The translations under genes and the position numbers were made by a program. DNA of 45,239 bases, taken from the NCBI GenBank assembly GCA_016184125.1, contig JACPDG010000074.1, forward strand, positions 1-45,239. The letters run 5' to 3'. Under the pieces are notes generated by a model. That model was not told the DNA's origin, did not search any database, and worked only from the letters and a program-made list of their open reading frames with translations. Positions within the stretch are counted from its first letter, which is position 1; each line of letters starts with the position of its first letter. This document shows, in pieces, positions 61-41,941 of this stretch. This DNA comes from Candidatus Rokuibacteriota bacterium (lineage in GTDB: Bacteria; Methylomirabilota; Methylomirabilia; Rokubacteriales; CSP1-6).

Positions 61-218
61 GGCTTGACAAAATGGTGGGAAGTCCGGGCCGCTTCCGAGT
101 GTGGGGGGGCCATGTCGGGGCCCCCACTCGCCCAGCGCAGCCCCGAGGAGCGGCCCGGGTCCCCCGGGCCGCTTCCGAGCGTGGGGGGGTGTGGGGGGCC
201 ATGTCGGGGCCCCCCACT
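61..218 (+). repeat. GC-rich palindromic element, copy A (two units)
   Basis: Two head-to-tail units. The first (about 61-127) has only a remnant of hairpin 1 and a hairpin 2 around 102-126. The second has hairpin 1 with arms CGGCCCGGG/CCCGGGCCG and loop TCC at about 151-171, the linker TTCCGAGCG plus a G-run, and hairpin 2 (TGGGGGGCC, loop ATGTCGG, GGCCCCCA) ending at 218. The element stops one base before the TAG of the prepilin gene (219-221). Orientation is box-hairpin 1-hairpin 2 on +, so it converges on the prepilin gene. Confidence 0.85.
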
Positions 219-2850: not shown

Positions 2851-2910
2851 CGGGGCCTCCGGGCGCGCCGGCGGGCGGCGCCGGGCGCAGATCTGGGAAA
2901 TGTCGAGACA

Positions 2911-3180
2911 TCGAGGAGCGCCCCGGGTTTCACCGGTGCGTCCGCGCACCACGGGTGCGTCCGCGCACCCCCCGGGGCGCTTCCGAGCGCGGGGGGTGTG
3001 GGGGCCATTTCGGGGCCCGGGAGCCAGGCGTGAAACGAGGAGCGCCCCGGGCTTCCGAGCGCGGGGGGTGTGGGGGCCATTTCGGGGCCCGGGAGCCAGG
3101 CGTGAAACGAGGAGCGCCCCGGGTTTTCCCGGGGCGCTTCCGAGCGCGGGGGGTGTGGGGGCCATCTCGGGGCCCCCACT
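2911..3180 (+). repeat. GC-rich palindromic element, copy B (three units, expanded loop)
   Basis: Three tandem units fill the interval between the permease stop (3216) and the amidase start (2850). The box sequence GCCAGGCGTGAAACGAGGAG recurs between units. Hairpin 1 of the first unit keeps arms GCGCCCCGGG and CCCGGGGCGC, but its loop holds two copies of GGTGCGTCCGCGCACC (2935-2950 and 2954-2969), each a 6-bp hairpin with a TCCG tetraloop. Hairpin 1 of the second unit is reduced. The third hairpin 2 ends near 3180. Nothing coding is seen in the interval. Confidence 0.88.
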
Positions 3181-13493: not shown

Positions 13494-13507
13494 ACGGACT
13501 ACCGGAG

Positions 13508-13733
13508 TGGGGGGCCCCGACATGGCCCCCCACACCCCCCCGGCGCTCGCAAACCGGCCCGGGAAACCCGGGCCGGTGCTCGACTTCGGTCGGCGCTCCC
13601 GGGGGCCCCGACATGGCCCCCCACTCCCCGCCCCACTCCCCCCCCCGGCGCTCGCAAACCGGCCCGGGAAACCCGGGCCGGTGCTCGACTTCGGTCGGCG
13701 CTCAGGGAGGCCTGAACTGGCCGCCCACTCGAA
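13508..13733 (-). repeat. GC-rich palindromic element, copy C (two units plus degenerate hairpin)
   Basis: Minus-oriented. From the iorAB side: hairpin 2 (13508-13532, loop CCGACAT), linker, hairpin 1 with arms CCGGCCCGGG/CCCGGGCCGG and loop AAA (13554-13576), then a second hairpin 2 near 13601-13625, a second identical hairpin 1 near 13661-13683, and a decayed hairpin 2 ending at the TGA of the alpha/beta hydrolase gene (13734). The 42-base block from GGCGCTCGCAAACC to TCGGTCGGCGCTC is repeated exactly in both units, suggesting recent duplication. Confidence 0.87.
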
Positions 13734-15819: not shown

Positions 15820-15907
15820 AGTGGGGGGCCCCGAAATGGCCCCCCACACCCCCCGACGCTCGGCAGCGCCCCGGGGGACCCGGGGCGCTCCTCGTTTCAC
15901 GCCTGGC
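15820..15907 (-). repeat. GC-rich palindromic element, copy D (single clean unit)
   Basis: The best single reference unit. On the minus strand: box GCCAGGCGTGAAACGAGGA (15907-15889), hairpin 1 with arms GCGCCCCGGG/CCCGGGGCGC and a three-base loop (15866-15888), linker, then hairpin 2 (15822-15846, loop ATTTCGG). It occupies nearly the whole 93-bp gap between the NYN gene stop (15913) and the VanZ start (15819). Confidence 0.9.
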
Positions 15908-20578: not shown

Positions 20579-21682
20579 CTACCCGCTGCCGGCCGCGTTG
20601 GAAACCGGGGGGACGGTCCGCGGCACCTCGCACGATTCGCGCCGCGCGGCGCCGAGGCGGCGCGCGACCACCCACGCCGCATCGCGCGGATGGTCGAGCA
20701 TCAGCAGCGGCACGACGTAGTCCTGGAACGGCACCGGCCGGCGAGCGAGCCGGTGGATGACCGGGCGGTGCGCGAGCAGCGCGCCGCCGATCGATCGCCG
20801 GCGCAACGCCGCGACGAGCGCCGGCGGGACCGGGGCGCCGAGCGTGTCGCAGGCTCCCGCGAGCGCCACCGCGACCGCTCCCGCAACGCGCGCGGTCGTC
20901 GCGGCGTCCACGACCGCGTCCGGATCGATCTCATCGCCCCAGCGGTCGAGCATCAGCGCGATGTCGCAGTACCACAGGAGCCCGCCCAGTCCATGGTTGG
21001 CGACGAGGTGCAGACACGCGTGGACGAGGGCGTCGGCGGGCGCCAGCGCCCCGACGGTGGCGTGGCCGAGCGTGACCGTGCGCGACCGCTCCGCGGCGTG
21101 CGCGGCCCATCGCCATGCCGCGGGTCCCGACTTGTCGTCGACGAGCGTCCAGTGCAGGTCGATCACGGGCCGCGTGGACACGGGGCCGGCTGGCACGAAT
21201 TCCGTCGCGGCACGCCGCCGGACGTCGTCCTCGAAGCTCGGAGCCGCGTAGCCCAGACCGGAGAGGACGTCGCGCACGGCGCGTGCTTCGTGCCGCGAGA
21301 CGAGCAGGTCCACGTCGTCCATGGGGCGCAGGGCGGGATCTCCGTAGAGTGTCTCGGCGAGCGAGAGCCCCTTGAGGACCATGGTCTGGATGCCCTGGCC
21401 CTGGAGCCGCGCGACGACCTCCTCGAGCGCCGCGAGCCGGAGGAGCGACCGGCCGAGGCTCGCCCGGTGGTCCTGCGCGAGCGCCTCGACGAAGCGTGCC
21501 GGTGGCACCGGCGTCACGCGGGCCCGTGCGAAGAGCGCATGGAGCACCGGCGTGAGGCGCTCGTGCCGTGCCCGGCCGAGGAGCACGTCCCAGTCGGGCG
21601 GGGAGAGCGTCACGGTCTCGGCGCCCGCCAGCCAGGCGCGACCGCAACGGCAGAGGGCGTCGAACGCCGCGCTACGGCGCAT
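20579..21682 (-). CDS. nucleotidyltransferase family protein (PF14907-type)
   Basis: 367 residues. It has the features of the 'uncharacterised nucleotidyltransferase' family: helical N-terminus, VLKG (Lys104-Gly105), then LRPMDDVDLLV with Asp122, Asp123 and Asp125 as the metal-binding pair of a nucleotidyltransferase fold, and LHWTLVDD / ADALVHACLHLVANHG further on. Members occur in peptide-modification clusters together with HPr-kinase-like and PqqD-like genes, including some lasso peptide clusters, where nucleotide transfer to the peptide is proposed. The ATG overlaps the 3' end of the PqqD-like gene by 11 bp, so the two are coupled. It is the last gene of the candidate RiPP-like operon. 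Confidence 0.82.
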   Translation of the reverse strand: MRRSAAFDALCRCGRAWLAGAETVTLSPPDWDVLLGRARHERLTPVLHALFARARVTPVPPARFVEALAQDHRASLGRSLLRLAALEEVVARLQGQGIQTMVLKGLSLAETLYGDPALRPMDDVDLLVSRHEARAVRDVLSGLGYAAPSFEDDVRRRAATEFVPAGPVSTRPVIDLHWTLVDDKSGPAAWRWAAHAAERSRTVTLGHATVGALAPADALVHACLHLVANHGLGGLLWYCDIALMLDRWGDEIDPDAVVDAATTARVAGAVAVALAGACDTLGAPVPPALVAALRRRSIGGALLAHRPVIHRLARRPVPFQDYVVPLLMLDHPRDAAWVVARRLGAARRESCEVPRTVPPVSNAAGSG

Positions 21683-21941
21683 GCACCATCTCGACCAGGT
21701 GCTTGTCGGCGAGCTCGGCGACGAACGCGTCCACGTCGGCGCGCGCGCGCTCGGCCTCCACCCCGAACTCCCGCGCGATCTCGGTGGCGATGTCGTCCAC
21801 GGCACGGTGCCCGTCGATGAGCTCCCAGACGCGCGTCCCGACCGGATTCAGACCGCGGAGCATCCGCGTGTCCAGGCTCAGGACGACGCCTTCGCCCGCG
21901 ATGGTTCGCCACGCGACACGGGGGCTCTTGCGGATGACCAT
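21672..21941 (-). CDS. PqqD-like peptide recognition protein (RRE)
   Basis: 89 residues. Pattern of PqqD/RRE domains: a strand-rich N-terminus (KSPRVAWRTIAGEGVVLSLDTRMLRGLNPVGTRVWELIDG) followed by the winged-helix part (AVDDIATEIAREFGVEAERARADVDAFVAELADKHLV). Such proteins bind the leader of RiPP precursor peptides and present it to modifying enzymes. It lies 10 bp downstream of the RelE-type toxin stop and overlaps the nucleotidyltransferase start. The likely partner peptide is the 52-residue ORF at 26346-26504. Confidence 0.85.
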   Translation of the reverse strand: MVIRKSPRVAWRTIAGEGVVLSLDTRMLRGLNPVGTRVWELIDGHRAVDDIATEIAREFGVEAERARADVDAFVAELADKHLVEMVHAP

Positions 21942-21951
21942 GCGAGCGGGT

Positions 21952-22269
21952 CTATTCCTTCACCACCCGATCGAGCCAGTAGCCGGGTCGGCGCTTCGCG
22001 TGGGCCACGGCAAGGACTCTGACGTGCGGGCCGAGGTCCATGAAGATCACCGCGTACGGAAAGCGCGGGAGCAAGGCGCGGCGAACGACCAAATCCTCTG
22101 GTAGATCAAGCAAGCGTGGAAACGAGGCTGGAGAGCTCCCGATCAGCGGCAGGACGCGATCGATCTCGGCGAGGAACTCCGACTCCAAGCCCGGCCGTCG
22201 CGCCATGTACCACACGGTCGCTTCGAACACCTCGTCGATCGCCTCTGGGGAGAGGCGGACCGGCTTCAC
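21952..22269 (-). CDS. RelE/ParE-family toxin
   Basis: 105 residues with the ParE/RelE pattern: VRLSPEAIDEVFEATVWY at the N-terminus, then RRALLPRFPYAVIFMDLGPHVRVLAVAHAKRRPGYW, where the F-P-Y-x-V-x-F and V-L-A-V-A-H-x-K-R-R-P-x-Y-W strands are diagnostic. Its GTG start overlaps the antitoxin stop (GTGA), the usual coupling. It lies inside the peptide-modification cluster, between the S26 peptidase and the pqqD-like gene, on the same strand. Confidence 0.88.
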   Translation of the reverse strand: MKPVRLSPEAIDEVFEATVWYMARRPGLESEFLAEIDRVLPLIGSSPASFPRLLDLPEDLVVRRALLPRFPYAVIFMDLGPHVRVLAVAHAKRRPGYWLDRVVKE

Positions 22270-22514
22270 CGAGTGGAGAGCCGGCTCCGAATCTGCTTGC
22301 GCGCCTCGGTCCAGGGCACGCCCGGAGCACCCCGCATCCCCGCGCGGGCGCGCCGCTCGATCTCCTGAATCCACTCCTCGTCGCTGCGCCCCTGACTCGC
22401 CACGTCAGGTTCCAGCGTAGCCAGCAACTCCGCCACAATTCGGGCGCGCTCGTCGGCGGGGAGCTTGAGGGCTTCGTCGAGGACTCGGTCGACGGTACCA
22501 GCCATGACCTGCAT
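22266..22514 (-). CDS. addiction-module antitoxin (PF09720-type)
   Basis: 82 residues: VDRVLDEALKLPADERARIVAELLATLEPDV followed by DEEWIQEIERRARA, the 'putative addiction module component' pattern (A-L-x-L-P-x-x-E-R-x-x-L/I-A-x-x-L-L-x-S/T-L). These short helical proteins pair with RelE/ParE toxins, here the overlapping gene downstream. Two ATG codons (22514 and 22505) are possible starts; neither has a strong ribosome binding site. The S26 peptidase gene ends 31 bp upstream. Confidence 0.85.
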   Translation of the reverse strand: MQVMAGTVDRVLDEALKLPADERARIVAELLATLEPDVASQGRSDEEWIQEIERRARAGMRGAPGVPWTEARKQIRSRLSTR

Positions 22515-22545
22515 TCTACGCCGCGCGACGATTCCCCGAAGTAGT

Positions 22546-23280
22546 TCAGCCGAGCCCCACCGTCCAGGCGACCGCGTACGGCGGGATCCGGGCCAGTCCG
22601 CGCACCACGCGTGGCGCGGCCACGACGCGCGCTCCGACGCACCGCCGTGAATGGAGAGCGAGCACTCGATCGAGGATCGTCCAGACGGCGCCGTCGACGC
22701 GCACGACGCGGCCGGCGCGTTCGATCGCGACGACGCGCCCGATCACCGACGCGGGGTCGACGGGGGCATCTGGGGACGCGAGCGCGTCGCCCTTGAGCAC
22801 GAGGCGCGCGCCGGAGCGAGCCACGAGCCGGTGGACCACCATCATGGGGGGCCCCGGCATGGCCCCCCACCATCGCACGAAGGGGGCTGACGCCCCCCTC
22901 GGACTCCCCCGGCCCCCGCCCTCGGCGCCGTCCCGGGACACCCGGGACGGCCCTCGATGACCCGATTTGTTCACGGCCTCCGAGCCGTCCGCGACAACCG
23001 CGAGCAGCTCGCCGAGCCTCGGGGCTGTGTGCGTCAGCGGGGCCAGGCAGACGCGGTCGCCGGGCCGCACGACAGGCGCCATGCTCGACGTCGCGACCGC
23101 GCACCAGAGCTGACCGTCACGTGCGACGACATTGCCGGCGAATGCCGCCGTGTACGCGGCACGCTCGGCCCTGCGGTCGCGCAGGCGTACCGTCTCGCTC
23201 GGACGAACGCCAGGTGTCGACGCGCCACGCCTCGCCCGGGACGCCGCGGTGCGCGCGGCACGCTCGTCCGCGCCGGTCAC
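22546..23280 (-). CDS. S26/SipW-type signal peptidase with in-frame palindromic element
   Basis: 244 residues including the insert. The catalytic Ser box is TSSMAPVVRPGDRV (Ser66-Met67 followed by the GD-V motif) and the second box is VVHRLVAR with His150, followed by LVLKGDALASPD: the Ser-His arrangement of ER/SipW-type signal peptidases rather than the bacterial Ser-Lys type. Between VVADGSEA and MVVHRL, about 45 codons (roughly residues 102-146) are encoded by palindromic element F without breaking the frame; removing them gives a normal spacing. GTG start overlaps the methyltransferase stop (GTGA), fixing the start. No clear membrane helix is visible. In this cluster it could remove a leader peptide. 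Whether the enlarged protein is active is unknown. Confidence 0.8.
   Translation of the reverse strand: MTGADERAARTAASRARRGASTPGVRPSETVRLRDRRAERAAYTAAFAGNVVARDGQLWCAVATSSMAPVVRPGDRVCLAPLTHTAPRLGELLAVVADGSEAVNKSGHRGPSRVSRDGAEGGGRGSPRGASAPFVRWWGAMPGPPMMVVHRLVARSGARLVLKGDALASPDAPVDPASVIGRVVAIERAGRVVRVDGAVWTILDRVLALHSRRCVGARVVAAPRVVRGLARIPPYAVAWTVGLG
22845..22977 (-). repeat. GC-rich palindromic element, copy F (inside the S26 peptidase gene)
   Basis: On the minus strand: box GCCGTGAACAAATCG (to about 22977), hairpin 1 with perfect 10-bp arms CCGTCCCGGG/CCCGGGACGG and loop of 3 (22928-22950), a GC-rich linker with an extra small hairpin (AGGGGGC-TGAC-GCCCCCCT, about 22881-22898), then hairpin 2 (22845-22869, loop ATGCCGG). 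The element is stop-free in the coding frame and encodes about 45 residues. Confidence 0.9.
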
Positions 23281-24407
23281 GCGAGCGCCCGCACGACCAG
23301 CGCGACGTCGGCCACCGCGCGCGCCAGCGACGGATAGCGATCCGGAAACCGGAGACGGAGCCGCTCGGCGAGCTCGCCCACCGTCGTCGTGCCGTCCAGG
23401 TGCGGCGCGGCGGCCGCGGCGGCCTCGAACAGCGGCGTCGCGGCCGGCACCGCCGTCTGGCTGGCCCGCCCGGCCGTGACCTCGTCGATCGTCGAGTGAT
23501 CGAAGGCGACCCGCGCCCGCCTCGGACGCTCGACCTCGCCGCGCCAGCTCCACACGACGCTCCGGCCGTCGACGAGCGCGCCGAGCGCGACGGTCAGTCG
23601 ATCGCCCGCCTCGACGCCGATCGGCGTCTCGAGTGCGAACACCGCGTGCTTCCAGTGTGTGCCCGGTGCGCCGGGGGCCGTGGTGAGCTGCACCCCGGGG
23701 ACGAGCGTGGCTTCGAACCAGCCGGCGAGACCGCTGAGATGGCCTGGCCGGCGCATCTCGAACGCGAGCTCACCGGCCCAGCACGCGGGCGGCGGCAGCC
23801 GCAGCGTGTCGAGACGGACCGAGACGAACGGTTGCGGGCTCGCGAGCAGGTCGTCCGGCGTGACGCAGATCGCGTCGAAGGCGTCCGCCGCCCAGCGGCG
23901 CGCGGCCCGGAAGTCGATCCCGAAGCGCTCGCCGCCCCAGAACGCGATCCGGCGCGCCGACTCGGCCGAGTCGACGGGAGCGACGACCAGCGTGACGTCC
24001 GCGGGGATGATCCGTCCGCCGGGCTTGAGCCAGCGCGCCCGGGCATCGGCGAGCGCGTGGACGATCTGCTCCTCGAGCGCGAAGTGGCCGAGGGTCTCGG
24101 TCACGATGACGTCGGCCGGCTCCGGCAGCTCGATGGCCGCCGAGGTCGCGGCGACGAAGGTGATCACGTCCGCGCAGCCGTTCGCCCGCGCCACCGCGCC
24201 GGCGAGCCCGACCAGCGACGCGTCGCGCTCGATCGCGAACACGCGCCGGGCGCCCGCCTGACACGCGAAGAACGCGAGGAGGCCGGTCCCGGTGCCGAGA
24301 TCGACGACGACGTCACCGGGACGCACCGCGGCGTGGATCGCGTCGCGGTAGGCGCTCCCGCGCACGCCGTCGGCCAGCATGATCGCGTGGGCGGCGAGCA
24401 GCGACAC
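23277..24407 (-). CDS. PRMT-type SAM-dependent methyltransferase with PqqD-like C-terminus
   Basis: 376 residues. The N-terminus follows the protein arginine methyltransferase pattern: HAIMLADGVRGSAYRDAI, SAM-binding VVVDLGTGTGLLAFFACQAGA (residues 33-53), acidic Glu60 in AIERD, then VTETLGHFALEEQ (Glu104, Glu112) resembling the double-E loop, and a beta-barrel C-terminal part. The last 45 residues (HLDGTTTVGELAERL..ARAVADVALVVRAL) look like the winged-helix half of PqqD domains, so this enzyme may carry its own peptide-recognition element; that is inference. GTG start lies 6 bp after the radical SAM stop; its own stop overlaps the S26 peptidase start. A modified amino acid in the peptide product is the likely outcome. 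Confidence 0.78.
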   Translation of the reverse strand: MSLLAAHAIMLADGVRGSAYRDAIHAAVRPGDVVVDLGTGTGLLAFFACQAGARRVFAIERDASLVGLAGAVARANGCADVITFVAATSAAIELPEPADVIVTETLGHFALEEQIVHALADARARWLKPGGRIIPADVTLVVAPVDSAESARRIAFWGGERFGIDFRAARRWAADAFDAICVTPDDLLASPQPFVSVRLDTLRLPPPACWAGELAFEMRRPGHLSGLAGWFEATLVPGVQLTTAPGAPGTHWKHAVFALETPIGVEAGDRLTVALGALVDGRSVVWSWRGEVERPRRARVAFDHSTIDEVTAGRASQTAVPAATPLFEAAAAAAPHLDGTTTVGELAERLRLRFPDRYPSLARAVADVALVVRALA

Positions 24408-24412
24408 GGCGG

Positions 24413-25486
24413 TTACCCCGAGACGCCCAGCACGTCGCCGTGGATCGTGAGCAGGAACCCCAGGCAGCGAGCGCACTCGCCGGCTCCGTGCCCGCAGTCG
24501 CCCGCCGCGCCGGTCAGGTCCCGCGCGGACAGCCGTCTGAGGCGCTGCATGATCCGCGCCTCGCGCCAGATCTCTCGAAAGCTCCGCGTGCGCAGCGAGC
24601 CTGCCGAGAGGCCATACGGAAACGCCAGGCACGGGTACACCTCGCCCGAAGGGGAGATGTCGCAGCCCCACCGTCCCGCGCCGCACGTGCCGCTGTCCTC
24701 GCCGCACGCCTCACGCCGCTCGATCGTCCCCTCGAGCAGCGGGTCACGACCGAGCGTCGTGATCCGGCTCGCGACGAGCTGGTAGCCGAGCGGGACCAGG
24801 TCGCCGTCGCGCCGTGGCGCGACGGTCACGTCGAACCGGTGGCTGGCGCCGACCGATTCCGCGAACGCCGCGACCTCGCGGTACGCGCCGGCGTTCAGCG
24901 TCATGAGAGGGGCCTTCACCACGACCGGCACGCCTCGCTCGCGGAGCAGCCGCACCGCCTCGAGCGTGCGCGCATTCGACCCGGCGCGCCGGGTGATCGC
25001 GTCGTGCACCGCGGGCGTCACGCTGTACACGGTGATCTCGACCGCGCAGGGGGCGAGCGCGGCGACCTCGTCCGCGAGCGCGGGCGTGATGAGCGTCCCG
25101 CTCGTGAAGCACGTGAGGACGAAGCCCCGCTCGCGCGCGGCGCGCAGGATCGCGATCAGGTCCTTGCGCAGGAAGATCTCGCCCCCCGTCACCGTCAGGA
25201 AGAGCGTCCCCTCGGCGGCCAGCTCGTCGAACACGCGGCCATACTCGTCGGCCGTGAGCGGCCGCTCCTTCGGGTCCTGACCGATGTAGCACTGCACGCA
25301 GTCGAGCGGGCAGGCGTGGTTGACCTCGATCATGACGCCGAGCGGGATCCAGGCCTCGGCGGCGCGCTCGAAGAGCCGGTCGAGGTGACCGCCCGTGAAC
25401 GACTCCGACCTCGAGCCGCGCCCCGGGTCCCCCGGGGCGCGTGCGAGCGCTTGGGGGGTATGGGGGGCCATTTCGGGGCCCCCCAT
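24413..25486 (-). CDS. radical SAM/SPASM peptide-modifying enzyme
   Basis: 357 residues if started at the first repeat-borne ATG. Radical SAM cluster motif C-x3-C-x2-C at NHACPLDCVQCYIG (Cys59, Cys63, Cys66), TVTGGEIFLRKDL for SAM binding, and a C-terminal SPASM-type cysteine set: CGAGRWGCDISPSGEVYPCLAF and CGHGAGECARCLG. Such enzymes (PqqE, MftC, anSME relatives) form C-C or thioether bonds in peptides. There is no ATG, GTG or TTG between element G and the conserved region (HLDRLFERAAEAWIPLG), so the only canonical starts are ATG 25486 and ATG 25471, both inside hairpin 2 of the element and in the same frame. The methyltransferase follows after 6 bp. Confidence 0.85.
   Translation of the reverse strand: MGGPEMAPHTPQALARAPGDPGRGSRSESFTGGHLDRLFERAAEAWIPLGVMIEVNHACPLDCVQCYIGQDPKERPLTADEYGRVFDELAAEGTLFLTVTGGEIFLRKDLIAILRAARERGFVLTCFTSGTLITPALADEVAALAPCAVEITVYSVTPAVHDAITRRAGSNARTLEAVRLLRERGVPVVVKAPLMTLNAGAYREVAAFAESVGASHRFDVTVAPRRDGDLVPLGYQLVASRITTLGRDPLLEGTIERREACGEDSGTCGAGRWGCDISPSGEVYPCLAFPYGLSAGSLRTRSFREIWREARIMQRLRRLSARDLTGAAGDCGHGAGECARCLGFLLTIHGDVLGVSG
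25398..25485 (+). repeat. GC-rich palindromic element, copy G (5' end of the radical SAM gene)
   Basis: Plus-oriented, i.e. antisense to the gene it precedes. Box-like CCGTGAACGACTCCG (about 25393-25408), hairpin 1 arms GCGCCCCGGG/CCCGGGGCGC with loop TCC (25418-25440), linker GCGAGCGCTTGGGGGG, hairpin 2 with TGGGGGGCC (25461-25469), loop ATTTCGG and GGCCCCCCA (25477-25485). Confidence 0.9.
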
Positions 25487-25492
25487 GAACTC

Positions 25493-25540
25493 AGTTCGAG
25501 CAACAATCGACCGTCGGGGCGGTCGATTGTTGCTCGAACT
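25493..25540. repeat. perfect 21-bp stem / 6-nt loop hairpin
   Basis: Positions 25493-25513 and 25520-25540 are exact reverse complements with loop TCGGGG. The arm starts AGTTCGAGCAACAATCGACC. It is less GC-rich than its surroundings, lies 14 bp downstream of the HPr-kinase-like gene stop and 7 bp from palindromic element G. No T-run follows on either strand, so it is not a classic intrinsic terminator. Confidence 0.9.
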
Positions 25541-25554
25541 CTCGGTCGCGCCGC

Positions 25555-26349
25555 TCATGCGCGGTCCGCGGCGATGGCCGCGTCGACGAGCGGCCAGAAC
25601 GGCCGTCCGCGGACGACGCTCAGCTCGAAGACGGGGACGAGCGGCACGAGGCGCGCGAGCGTCCCGAGGACCGCGTCCCCGAGCGCGCCATCCGGCGCGG
25701 GCACGAAGAGGCTCTGCATGAGCTCGCGCGCGGCCAGCGCCGGCGGAAGGGCGCGGATGCCGGCGGTGCCCGTCCGGCGCAGGCGGTGGAGGGCGCCCAG
25801 CGGCGCCGACAGGTTCCGGCCGCGCCACGGTGTGCCGTGCGCGCGGGCCGTCTCGCCGTCCACGCGCAGCGCGACGACCTCGTCGGACAGCACGCCGTGG
25901 CGCCGGCGCCGCGCGAGCGTCGTCTTGCCGCTGCCCGACGGCCCGAAGAACACGTGGGCCCGCCCGCCCCAGGTGAGCGCGGCGGCGTGCACCAGCAGCC
26001 CGCCGCGCGACGGAAGCTCGAGGCCGAACACGCCGGCGAGGAAGCGATGGAAGACGCCGAGCGACGCCGGCTGGCGGATCGCGCCCCGGCGCTCGACGCG
26101 GTCGTACCGGCCCTCGAACCCTGGACCGACGAGCTCGAGCGCGCGCGCGTCGAGCGCAAACGCCCCCGGCCCTCCACCGCCACGGCGGCCCGGCACGATG
26201 TCGGCCTCGACCGTGAAGTCCGGGGCGCGGCCCTCGACGGCGAACGCAGCGAGGCGCGCCGCGAGCGCCGACCGGAAGGCGAGCGGCTTCGCCTCGATCG
26301 CGGCCGTCACGCCGGCGACGGCCACGACGAGCGGCCCGGCCTCGCTCAC
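25555..26349 (-). CDS. HPr kinase-like protein
   Basis: 264 residues with the HPr kinase/phosphorylase C-terminal ATPase features: LLVHAAALTWGG (His121), Walker A FGPSGSGKTT (residues 136-144), and LSDEVVALR (Asp156-Glu157) as the metal/Walker B position. The spacing from Walker A to LSDE is shorter than usual by several residues. Related stand-alone kinases occur in lasso peptide clusters, for example the paeninodin kinase that phosphorylates the peptide C-terminal Ser. GTG start overlaps the stop of the precursor-like ORF (GTGA), so peptide and kinase are translationally coupled. Confidence 0.83.
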   Translation of the reverse strand: MSEAGPLVVAVAGVTAAIEAKPLAFRSALAARLAAFAVEGRAPDFTVEADIVPGRRGGGGPGAFALDARALELVGPGFEGRYDRVERRGAIRQPASLGVFHRFLAGVFGLELPSRGGLLVHAAALTWGGRAHVFFGPSGSGKTTLARRRRHGVLSDEVVALRVDGETARAHGTPWRGRNLSAPLGALHRLRRTGTAGIRALPPALAARELMQSLFVPAPDGALGDAVLGTLARLVPLVPVFELSVVRGRPFWPLVDAAIAADRA

Positions 26350-26504
26350 GTGCGAAGCCCTCCCGCGCGGCGCAGGCAGCTCGTGTTCTTCCTGCCGCAG
26401 GCCGAGAACGTCTCCGGCACGAACGGCTCCTCCCAGACGATGCGGGGAGGCTCGTACGGAGGCCGCGGGGCCTGGTCGTCGTCACGCGGCGCGGTCGGCT
26501 CCAT
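26346..26504 (-). CDS. RiPP precursor-like small peptide
   Basis: 52 residues from ATG 26504. The N-terminal half is acidic/proline-rich (MEPTAPRDDDQAPRPP), the middle has YEPPRIVWEEPFVPETFSA, and the C-terminus is short, basic and contains two Cys (CGRKNTSC..RRAGGLRT). Y-x-x-P-x-I resembles the Y-x-x-P-x-L leader motif bound by the recognition domains of lasso peptide systems, with the following residues as the presumed core. Small ORFs of this kind next to HPr-kinase-like and PqqD-like genes are known in soil bacteria, but their products are mostly unstudied. The TGA overlaps the kinase GTG. The ribosome binding site is weak, and an upstream GTG/TTG start would add up to 9 residues. Confidence 0.7.
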   Translation of the reverse strand: MEPTAPRDDDQAPRPPYEPPRIVWEEPFVPETFSACGRKNTSCLRRAGGLRT

Positions 26505-28770: not shown

Positions 28771-31224
28771 GCCGGGGAACGTGCCGCCCGTCGTCGCGTA
28801 TGTCAGGGTCTCGCTGCCCTGCCCGGCGCCCGTCCTGGTCAGCCGGACCCGGATGGTGGACGTGGTGGCGCCGTCCGCGGGGAGCGACGAGGTCACCGAG
28901 ATCAGCTCGAGGACGTACCGCGTGACGAGCACCGTCCCGGTCACCGTGCTCTCGTTGCCGCTCTGGTCGCCCCGGCGATGGACCGCGACGCCGAACGTGT
29001 ACGTCGTGTCCAGGCCCGGGTCGCCGACGGTGGCGAACGTGACGATGAAGTCCTTGGTCGCCCCACTGGCGGCGATGTCGCTCGCGACCCCCGGGGAGGT
29101 GTATCGGTACGCCGACGCCGTCGGCTGGCTCGAGGTCCAGGTGCTCGAGCTCGTGCCGCTGTTGTTGCTCGCCCACGTCGCGTCCGTCACCCAGAACGTC
29201 GTGTTCGGGTTCGTCACCGTGATCCGGTCGACCGTGCCGGCCGCGAGCGTGTTCTGCACCGTGAACCTGATCTGGACGGCCGCCGATCCGGCCGTCACGG
29301 AGGTGGGCGCCACCGTCAGGCCGTAGCTCGCGATGCGGCCCGTGTTCGAGACCGTCGGCCCGGCCGTCAGGCCGCCACCGTTCGCCTGCACCGTGCCCGA
29401 GAACGCGTACGTCTGGTCGACGCTGCCCGTCACGGTGTACACCCACTCGAAGCTCGTGCTGGCCCCGCCGGCGAGCGCCGGGACCGACGGCGGCGTCGGC
29501 CCGCTCGCGTAGCTCGTCCCCGCGGTTCCAGCCGGCGTCAACGTCGAGCTCGGCGTGACGTCCGTGAGCGTGCTCGAGCCGCGGTTGCGGACCGTCATGA
29601 CGATGGTCACGTTGCCGCCGCTCGCCGCCGTGGCGTCGACCGTCATCGCGGTGACCTCGAGGGTCGGGATCCTCACGGTGATCGACGTCTGGACCAGGAT
29701 GTCCTGCACCTTCCCGCGCTGCCGCACCGTGACGTCGAAGTTGTAGACGGTGTCGATGCCCGGATCCGCCACCGTGTCGAAGGTGATCGTGAAGTCCCTG
29801 TAGTTGTCGCCCGTCCCCGTATCCGGGGGAATGTCCTGGCCGGCGCCGGGCGACACGAACCTGAAGCTCACGCCCTGCTGGACCGTCTTGCTCCAGCCCG
29901 ACGTGTCGTTGGCCTGCCACGCGGGATCGCTGAACCGCCAGATCCCGGTGGCCGGATCGACGATGTTCAGCCAGTCGATCGTCCCGGTCGTGAGCCCGTT
30001 GGTGACCCTGAACGTCACCTGCACGTTCGTCCCGACCGACTGCACCTCGACCGGCGTCACCGACACCGTGTAGATGCTGATGCGCCCGGGCGTCCCGGCG
30101 TTCGTCTCCGCAGCGGGCGCCGTGACGATCGCCGACCCGTCGCTCGCCGAGCCGGTGAACAGGTACGTCTGGTCCTGGCTCCCGGTCATCGTGTAGGTCC
30201 ACGTGAACGTCGCCGACGCCGCGGGCGCCAGCGAGGCGACCGACGCGGGGCTCGGACCGCTCACGAGCGCCGGGGTCGCGGTGCCGCTGAAGCCCAGCGG
30301 GGAGGAGGGCGCGACGCCGGCCAGCGCCGTGGCGCCGTTGTTCGTCACCGTCATCCTGACGGTGACGGTGTCCGTCGAGAACACGCTCGGATCCACGGTG
30401 AACGAGGTGATCTGGAGGGCGGGCGGGTCGTACGTGATGGACAGCCGGGGCCTCAGCGCGCGCGCCGGGTTGAAGTTGTAGTCGAGGCCGGCGTTCTCGC
30501 GCGTCGCGAAGTCCGCGCGGTACTGCGTCGTCGAGTCCTCGAGCACATCCTTGACCAGCACGCCGAGGTTCGTGGACGGCGACGCGAACCAGGCCTGCAC
30601 CGTCGCCGTCACGTTCCACGTCAGCCACACCCCGTTCGCCGTGCCTGATTCCGCAGTCGCGAGCGGCGCCGGGCCGAAGTCGCCGCCGGGCGTCGTCCAG
30701 GGCGTGGTCCCCGCGTTGTTCCAGGTGGCGCCGCCCTCCGTCCACGACGTGAGGATCTGGTGAACGCTGTACGTGCGCGACACCGCCGACGCGGTCGCCA
30801 TGTAGAGCTCGAGCGTCGCCGAGACGATCGCGCTGCCGGCCGGAATGCCTGCGAGCGAGAACTGCTGGAGCGCGCGGATGTTGCGCCCCGAGCCACCCTG
30901 GAAGTGGCTCTTCGCCGTCATGGTGGTGATCGAGCCCTTGTTCTGGTTGGGGCTCTGGAGATCGATCTCGGTGTCGGCGACCGACTCGCGGGTGAGCACC
31001 GTCGTCGCGACCGCCGGGCTCGCCACGCCGAGGAGGACGGCGACACACGCCAGCGCCGCTGCCGCAACGGAGAGCCGCGCGAGGAGCCTGTCGGAGAAAC
31101 GGCGAATCGAGGAGCGCCACGGGTTTCCCGGGGCGCTCCGAGCGTTGGGGGGTGTGGGGGGCCATTTCGGGGCCCCCCACGTCACACGGAGTGCCGGCAG
31201 AACGTGACGATGCGCGGGCGTCAT
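28771..31224 (-). CDS. N-terminal part of frameshifted DNRLRE-domain surface protein
   Basis: About 818 codons. The N-terminal extension contains palindromic element H, then a signal peptide (LLARLSVAAAALACVAVLLG..VAT), a DNRLRE domain (DTEIDLQSPNQNKGS .. RALQQFSLAGIPAGSAIVSATLELYM) and repeated beta-sandwich modules of about 190 residues (TVDPSVFSTDTVTVRMTVTNNG.., TVDATAASGGNVTIVMTVRNRG..) ending at a partial bacterial Ig-like repeat (TYATTGGTFPG). There the frame is lost by one extra C in a C-run; the old frame then runs on as low-complexity Arg-rich sequence to 27565. ATG 31224 is the best start; GTG at 31188 is an alternative. Confidence 0.75.
31085..31179 (+). repeat. GC-rich palindromic element, copy H (in the N-terminal coding region)
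   Basis: Plus-oriented, antisense to the DNRLRE gene. Box region GCCTGTCGGAGAAACGGCG, hairpin 1 arms GAGCGCCACGGG/CCCGGGGCGCTC with loop TTT and one A-G mismatch (31112-31138), linker CGAGCGTTGGGGGGTG, hairpin 2 with TGGGGGGCC (31155-31163), loop ATTTCGG and GGCCCCCCA (31171-31179). In the gene's frame it encodes WGAPKWPPTPPNARSAPG and the residues that follow, immediately before the signal peptide. Confidence 0.88.
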
Positions 31225-41784: not shown

Positions 41785-41936
41785 CCGGGCCCGGGTTCAT
41801 CCCGGGCCCGGCGAACGTCGGGGGATCGGGAACCATGGCAGGCTCTCCCAACGCATCGTGTGCCAGAGCTGGGCCCGGGTTCATCCCGGGCCCGGCGAAC
41901 GTCGGGGGGTATGGGGGGCCATCTCGGGGCCCCCCA
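41785..41936 (+). repeat. GC-rich palindromic element, copy I (two units)
   Basis: Plus-oriented. Unit 1: hairpin 1 with 11-bp arms CCGGGCCCGGG/CCCGGGCCCGG and loop TTCAT (41785-41811), followed by GCGAACGTCGGGGG and then a non-repeat segment (about 41826-41869) in place of hairpin 2. Unit 2: same hairpin 1 core (41871-41893) and a complete hairpin 2 (41912-41936, loop ATCTCGG). The element ends 5 bases from the stop codon of the cytochrome gene at 41942. Confidence 0.88.
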
Positions 41937-41941
41937 TGACG

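Follow-up and report, generated by a model that had tools for sequence, protein, structure and literature searches.

The locus studied here raises the question of whether a palindromic repeat can settle within the coding sequence of an enzyme gene, leave the reading frame open and be carried into the protein. In the window, by which we mean the whole stretch of 45,239 nucleotides that was analysed, a signal-peptidase-like gene carries such a segment between two catalytic boxes, as a sequence-only reading of this DNA had proposed. We consider it very likely that a GC-rich, multi-hairpin repeat, present in hundreds of copies and probably mobile in a non-autonomous manner, is inserted there in frame, and we predict that it adds a flexible loop of 46 residues to the protein, between the Ser and His boxes. 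The host gene, its boxes, the insert and a conserved neighbour are located as follows.

22546..23280, minus strand: host gene, signal-peptidase-like (S26/archaeal-type), 244 codons, from the list of open reading frames
23074..23088, minus strand: Ser box (SSMAP), with S and M unchanged in all six orthologues aligned
22843..22980, minus strand: insert, long-form repeat copy, 138 bp, 46 codons, defined by the gap against P0001 and four relatives and by the repeat alignment
22828..22839, minus strand: His box (VVHR), one codon past the insert, with H and R unchanged in all six orthologues aligned
22786..22791, minus strand: Gly-Asp within the Asp box (LKGDAL), with both residues unchanged in all six orthologues aligned
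21672..21941, minus strand: pqqD-family gene, conserved neighbour of the peptidase gene (PF05402, E 6.6e-20)

The catalytic Ser, His, Gly-Asp and Asp are all kept, in this order, and are invariant across the six-sequence alignment, which includes the window protein. We take these motifs to be the Ser, His and Asp boxes, which presumably places the window gene in the archaeal/SipW type of S26. The match of the window protein to TIGR02228 was weak (E 0.0038, below the curated cut-off), and the matches of four orthologues were clearer (E 1.9e-9 to 6.1e-11) but likewise all below the cut-off of 51.85 bits, the best reaching 42.4 bits. No Pfam signal-peptidase family scored above its cut-off. The box motifs together with the sub-cut-off TIGR02228 matches suggest the S26 assignment, and the gene is termed signal-peptidase-like here. 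Its GTG start overlaps the stop of the methyltransferase gene upstream.

The insert corresponds to residues 101-146 of the window protein and lies between the Ser and His boxes, as had been proposed. Against P0001, a metagenome protein of 168 residues that is 78% identical to the window protein, the alignment contained a single 46-residue gap; the earlier estimate of about 45 element-encoded residues and the claim that no host codon was lost both agree with this. P0001 came from a search of ~5.8 billion proteins, which gave two matches among 7997 scored candidates. Orthologues in the relatives G027, G008, G022 and G015, which are more distant than P0001, likewise lack the insert, so that the element-free orthologues sought by alignment were obtained. 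The four were used because a single gene holds both of their boxes; a match of some kind was present in 12 of the 60 relatives, and in the rest of the 12 the matching part was mostly the half with the His box, in other peptidase-like genes, or the repeat. A scan for the peptidase in GTDB representative contigs found three loci in 132 stretches. The ends of the insert coincide with those of the repeat: the left end, GAGGCCGTGAACAAATCGG, is the repeat left end, where other copies read GAG(C/G)CCGTGAACGAATCGG, and the right end, CCCCCCATG, is the right end seen in other copies. The insert is also 94% identical over 117 bases to another copy in the same genome. Structure models had low confidence, with mean pLDDT of 35.6 for the insert-bearing protein and 50.0 for P0001, values from which loop tolerance is not readable.

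With regard to gene location, the pqqD gene (PF05402) directly follows the peptidase gene in the same four relatives. In the window, a toxin-antitoxin-like pair (21952-22514, minus strand) lies between the two genes that are adjacent in those relatives; the antitoxin carries PF09720 (22266-22514), and the partner open reading frame at 21952-22374 is ParE/RelE-like by eye. Within 20579-26485 on the minus strand, radical SAM/SPASM, methyltransferase, pqqD and nucleotidyltransferase (PF14907) genes surround the peptidase gene, a gene set that looks like a peptide-maturation cluster.

The insert belongs to a repeat family of two forms. Three hairpins were found in the window copy.

22918..22961 (core 22927-22951), minus strand: hairpin 1, from the RNA fold, common to the copies
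22879..22900, minus strand: hairpin 2, from the RNA fold, long form only (49 genome copies)
22844..22870, minus strand: hairpin 3, from the RNA fold, both forms (430 pattern hits in the genome)

The fold of these three hairpins reached -87.4 kcal/mol (z = -3.44), and none of 200 shuffles was as good, in agreement with the earlier statement that the hairpins are intact. The short form (~70-90 bp) consists of hairpins 1 and 3 and is often found in tandem, and the long form (~124-140 bp, 49 copies) has hairpin 2 between them. In the source genome (4.09 Mb in 121 contigs, 92.8% complete, 71% GC), which comes from an uncultured bacterium judged by kinship to belong with Candidatus Rokuibacteriota, the hairpin-3 pattern had 430 matches at up to two mismatches, compared with 2 for the reversed control, and the hairpin-2 pattern had 49 at up to three mismatches, compared with 0. 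The window itself holds further copies, as follows.

84..217, plus strand: sister copies, tandem pair
2908..3180, plus strand: sister copies, tandem array
13505..13712, minus strand: sister copies, tandem pair, short form
15820..15894, minus strand: sister copy, short form
25409..25486, plus strand: sister copy, short form
31104..31180, plus strand: sister copy, short form
41861..41937, plus strand: sister copy, short form

Among 60 relatives, 29 matched the long repeat at E <= 0.001, many of them partially. Near full-length matches were obtained in the same genus (G001 and G002) and in at least two other genera of the family (G019; G007 and G028). The exact hairpin-2 pattern had no match in the GTDB representative contigs, a set that possibly does not include the own genome and those near it, and the window had no match in Rfam. 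Two side features were observed. The loop of hairpin 1 is often enlarged by tandem units around GTGCGTCCGCGCAC (for example in clusters L040, L051 and L104), and 46 of 153 clusters have a unit of this type no more than 80 bases away. A second palindrome, with arms GTTCGAGC(A/G)ACAATCGACCG, abuts some repeat copies (L030 at ~2580-2640, the window near 25490, and L099), and its arms had 16 matches in 493 kb.

The copy number, the filled and empty sites, and the tandem forms suggest that the repeat is a mobile, non-autonomous element. Shared flanking words of at least 8 bases, taken as possible target-site duplications, occurred in 8 of 85 copies compared with 6.7 expected, with no excess over shuffled pairs; an 8-base direct repeat that flanks the insert in carA (described below) was not accepted as evidence of target-site duplication in view of this null result. 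Terminal inverted repeats, which like target-site duplications are a mark of MITEs, were not seen by eye in an alignment of 21 copies. A RAYT enzyme (a Y1 transposase, whose gene the repeat flanks in GTAG families) was considered as the mover and rejected: no RAYT-type gene was found in five repeat-rich relatives (G001, G002, G007, G017 and G019; genomes incomplete), and the own genome, also incomplete, gave one partial RAYT-search match at a contig end, which was IS200-like by eye and had no repeat hits nearby.

The distribution of the copies was determined in a sample of 493 kb around 153 clusters, comprising all 49 long copies, the first 100 hairpin-3 places listed and their neighbours, so that the short-form sample is not random. 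Genes were called by codon usage ignoring the repeat itself, and 10 clusters at stretch ends were dropped. Of the 143 left, 17 lay inside called genes and 126 outside, whereas random 120-base stretches of the same sequence fell inside genes in 13556 of 20000 cases. The intergenic clusters were placed between co-oriented (88), convergent (28) or divergent (10) genes, and in the co-oriented class the median distance from stop codon to repeat was 0, with repeat ends being approximate. None of a further twelve own-genome clusters, picked mainly for translated matches in long open frames, lay in a called gene, and a long open frame was rejected as evidence of an in-gene copy, having little meaning at 71% GC. 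The long and short forms did not differ significantly in their presence in genes (8/49 vs 9/94, p 0.28), nor when, by our own choice, only copies with a two-sided coding signal were counted (6/49 vs 4/94, p 0.09). A first look at 105 clusters by phase statistics was also set aside, with same-strand coding flanks in phase in 13 of 39 cases, as expected by chance; relied on by itself, this count would have missed the copies in genes, which homology was needed to reveal. That so few copies lie in genes suggests either selection or a preference of the repeat for sites between genes.

In six of the 17 in-gene clusters, the flanks to either side of the repeat show homology in a single frame: the window gene, carA, mutS, birA, a DUF512/radical-SAM gene and a flavin reductase gene. 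Of the 11 without two-sided homology, five are plausible by codon usage, with homology on one side or none, and six are near a gene end or short-sided and were not counted as insertions. In carA on contig C19 (72333-73622), the CPSase and GATase domains flank the repeat, and the gene is 141 bp longer than an uninterrupted second carA of the same genome on contig C11 (13843-14952), the two proteins being 83-84% identical. The two halves of carA are contiguous or slightly overlapping in 21 same-order relatives (our count, among the matches listed with both halves), and nine class-level orthologues have ~12-31 other residues at the linker (our count), whose length thus varies. In mutS on contig C106, the repeat is antisense and splits MutS domain II into two stretches; the insert amounts to 60 residues more than in G001, G007 and, by alignment, G010, and the two parts are at most 20 bases apart in 25 relatives of the order (our count, among the matches listed with both). 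No second MutS1 was found in the own genome among the 23 candidates scored out of 189. In birA on contig C5, which carries a tandem pair, the protein has 52-62 residues more than seven aligned relatives, in which the loop at this site has 8 to 18 residues. The DUF512 domain appeared in two Pfam stretches, the position being known for the first, and the flavin reductase matched solved structures in two stretches with the repeat between them.

Seven clusters were examined for in-gene copies in relatives. G001 has in-frame tandem repeats in a copper-ATPase-like gene, and G017 has them in a xanthine-dehydrogenase-like gene; four other clusters lay outside called genes, and one was dropped owing to a run of N. 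The dropped cluster (L187, contig C89 of G001, ~1975-2164) shows tandem repeats between parts that are nuoG-like and nuoH-like by eye, beside the run of N through which alone it was called in-gene. That in-frame copies recur, both elsewhere in this genome and in genes of two relatives, is in line with the earlier proposal that the element may supply coding sequence.

The reading frame of the peptidase-like gene is open through all 244 codons (22546-23280, minus strand), so that the claimed absence of a stop was borne out, but an open frame is expected here and not special because the GC-rich repeat rarely has stops. Whichever of the six frames is taken, 123-138 of 145 short-form copies were open, and for the long form the count varied by frame from 13 to 46 of 49; the frame used in the peptidase gene (+2) is the one least often open in the long form, at 13/49. 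Stops being rare in the repeat, an insertion whose length is a multiple of three will often leave a gene open. One alternative builds on this composition, which by itself makes open frames through the repeat common: the gene would be decaying, the insertion having broken a dispensable gene whose frame merely happens to be open owing to the high GC content. The codon-usage score is weak in the 5' part of the window gene (0.11 per codon, and 0.02 beside the insert), and the toxin-antitoxin-like pair separates the peptidase gene from pqqD, unlike in the four relatives. We regard decay as unlikely, as the gene has no stop or frameshift, has kept its catalytic residues and is 78% identical to P0001 outside the insert, and the like arrangement is found in mutS and birA.

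The two carA copies also speak against decay, with similar numbers of changes. They differ mostly at synonymous sites (dS 0.66, dN 0.114), and mutS compared with that of G001 gave dN 0.185 and dS 0.66, values that for both genes also cover the time before the insertion. With six outgroups, the repeat-bearing carA had 14-27 lineage-specific residues and the empty copy 14-22, the former having slightly more with five of the six. The repeat-bearing carA thus shows no apparent sign of decay in its substitutions. The carA case is no proof of tolerance in an essential gene because carA is present twice. The decorated proteins are probably working, as judged from their sequences.

It is quite improbable that the segment is present in the DNA and absent from the protein, its hairpins being excised from the RNA or skipped by the ribosome. 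The hairpins are stable, and hairpin-mediated bypassing is known in other systems, but the measured inserts are divisible by three and free of stops, which neither removal nor skipping would need, although the search for in-gene copies favoured in-frame cases. In addition, a small Pfam test of five gene pairs, from 25 tight co-oriented pairs around the repeat, revealed no gene that had been split out of frame. An assembly artefact, in which repeats caused wrong joins, is very improbable: near-identical short repeats can be misjoined in a draft as fragmented as this one (121 contigs, 92.8% complete), but in six genes both flanks of the repeat match one homologue consecutively, which a wrong join would not give. 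An ordinary length-variable loop merely resembling the repeat has practically no probability left, since, although lengths at such sites do vary (the carA linker and the birA loop), the insert ends are the repeat ends and the DNA match to another copy excludes it.

The insertion of a probably mobile repeat that is predicted to be translated with its host gene is preferred here, and among known systems its nearest behaviour is that of the Rickettsia palindromic elements (RPEs), which the repeat resembles in how it works. According to PMC2229807 and PMC10969869, RPEs are hairpin repeats of ~100-150 bp that lie either between genes or in frame within conserved genes unrelated to one another, and they have reading frames of their own; for one Rickettsia gene with an RPE, the product is described as made and active (PMC2229807), and the same review places nearly half of RPEs inside genes. 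The long form is like them in size (~124-140 bp) and in its many copies, whereas the short form is smaller, and insertion in frame in unrelated conserved genes (sipW-like, carA, mutS and birA) with empty orthologues is also shared. The present repeat differs from RPEs in being a GC-rich mosaic of up to three hairpins, the likeness being one of behaviour and not of a comparison with RPE sequences, and only ~12% of the sampled clusters lie in called genes. Of the RPE-like behaviour proposed by the sequence-only reading, the in-frame insertion and the supply of coding sequence held up, and empty orthologues exist, whereas most sampled copies are intergenic and the in-gene ones a minority. Its suggestion that such behaviour would be new in an unrelated lineage is only partly right, since in-gene palindromes are already published for other bacteria (PMC3733652 and PMC2229807).

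Tagged REPs, as described in PMC3733652, have many copies and tandem groups, lie mostly close after genes in co-oriented or convergent settings and are found in genes in a minority of cases. That source reports palindromic repeats inside open reading frames of O. terrae, Thauera, Thioalkalivibrio, Xanthomonas and others, with many DNA-repair genes among them; the inserts are mostly 20-30 residues, but reach 43-82 where repeats are clustered, as in Thauera and R. conorii. The words MutS, Rokubacteria and Methylomirabilis are absent from its main text. The repeat studied here is like the GTAG/CGTC REPs in copy number, tandem grouping, co-oriented or convergent placement just after stops, and an in-gene minority that includes a repair gene. 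It is unlike them in lacking a consistent tag and a RAYT-type match in the five repeat-rich relatives and in having larger units, and the inserts of 46 to ~60 residues are unlike most tagged-REP inserts. A GTAG tag was near an end in 5 of 87 copies, and of the same 87, 4 had a CGTC tag immediately at the left end and 26 had one anywhere near an end, counts that are affected by the automatic end finder misplacing the left end in some copies. In-frame gene fusions of ERIC, Correia and Yersinia elements are reviewed in PMC2229807, which also attributes both target duplications and terminal inverted repeats to the Correia and ERIC elements. Like ERIC, Correia/NEMIS and Yersinia RU-2 (~100-170 bp), the present repeat is short and probably non-autonomous and may fuse in frame with genes; unlike Correia and ERIC, it has no detectable target duplication and, by eye, no terminal inverted repeats. 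No literature on such repeats in Rokubacteria or Methylomirabilota was found.

As to mechanism, an enzyme acting in trans would move the repeat, and copies would insert widely. Selection would then purge most in-gene insertions and leave those whose length is a multiple of three, that contain no stop and that sit in a loop or a linker between domains, most frames being free of stops thanks to the high GC content. A more far-reaching proposal, which we hold to be rather doubtful, is that the family is an ongoing generator of protein segments, acting repeatedly and recently in core enzymes including MutS, with new insertions having a fair chance of giving loops of at least 46 residues because the hairpins contain almost no stops. 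If it were true, a weakened MutS could ease further spread of the repeat.

Protein-decorating palindromes are best known from Rickettsia, and here an untagged family, with no detectable RAYT, is in an RPE-like arrangement in an uncultured GC-rich lineage. Annotators of this lineage are warned that repeat-derived segments may lie inside conserved enzymes. The natural pairs of filled and empty carA, within one genome, and of mutS, birA and the peptidase gene make the question of whether such segments are neutral, harmful or useful directly testable.
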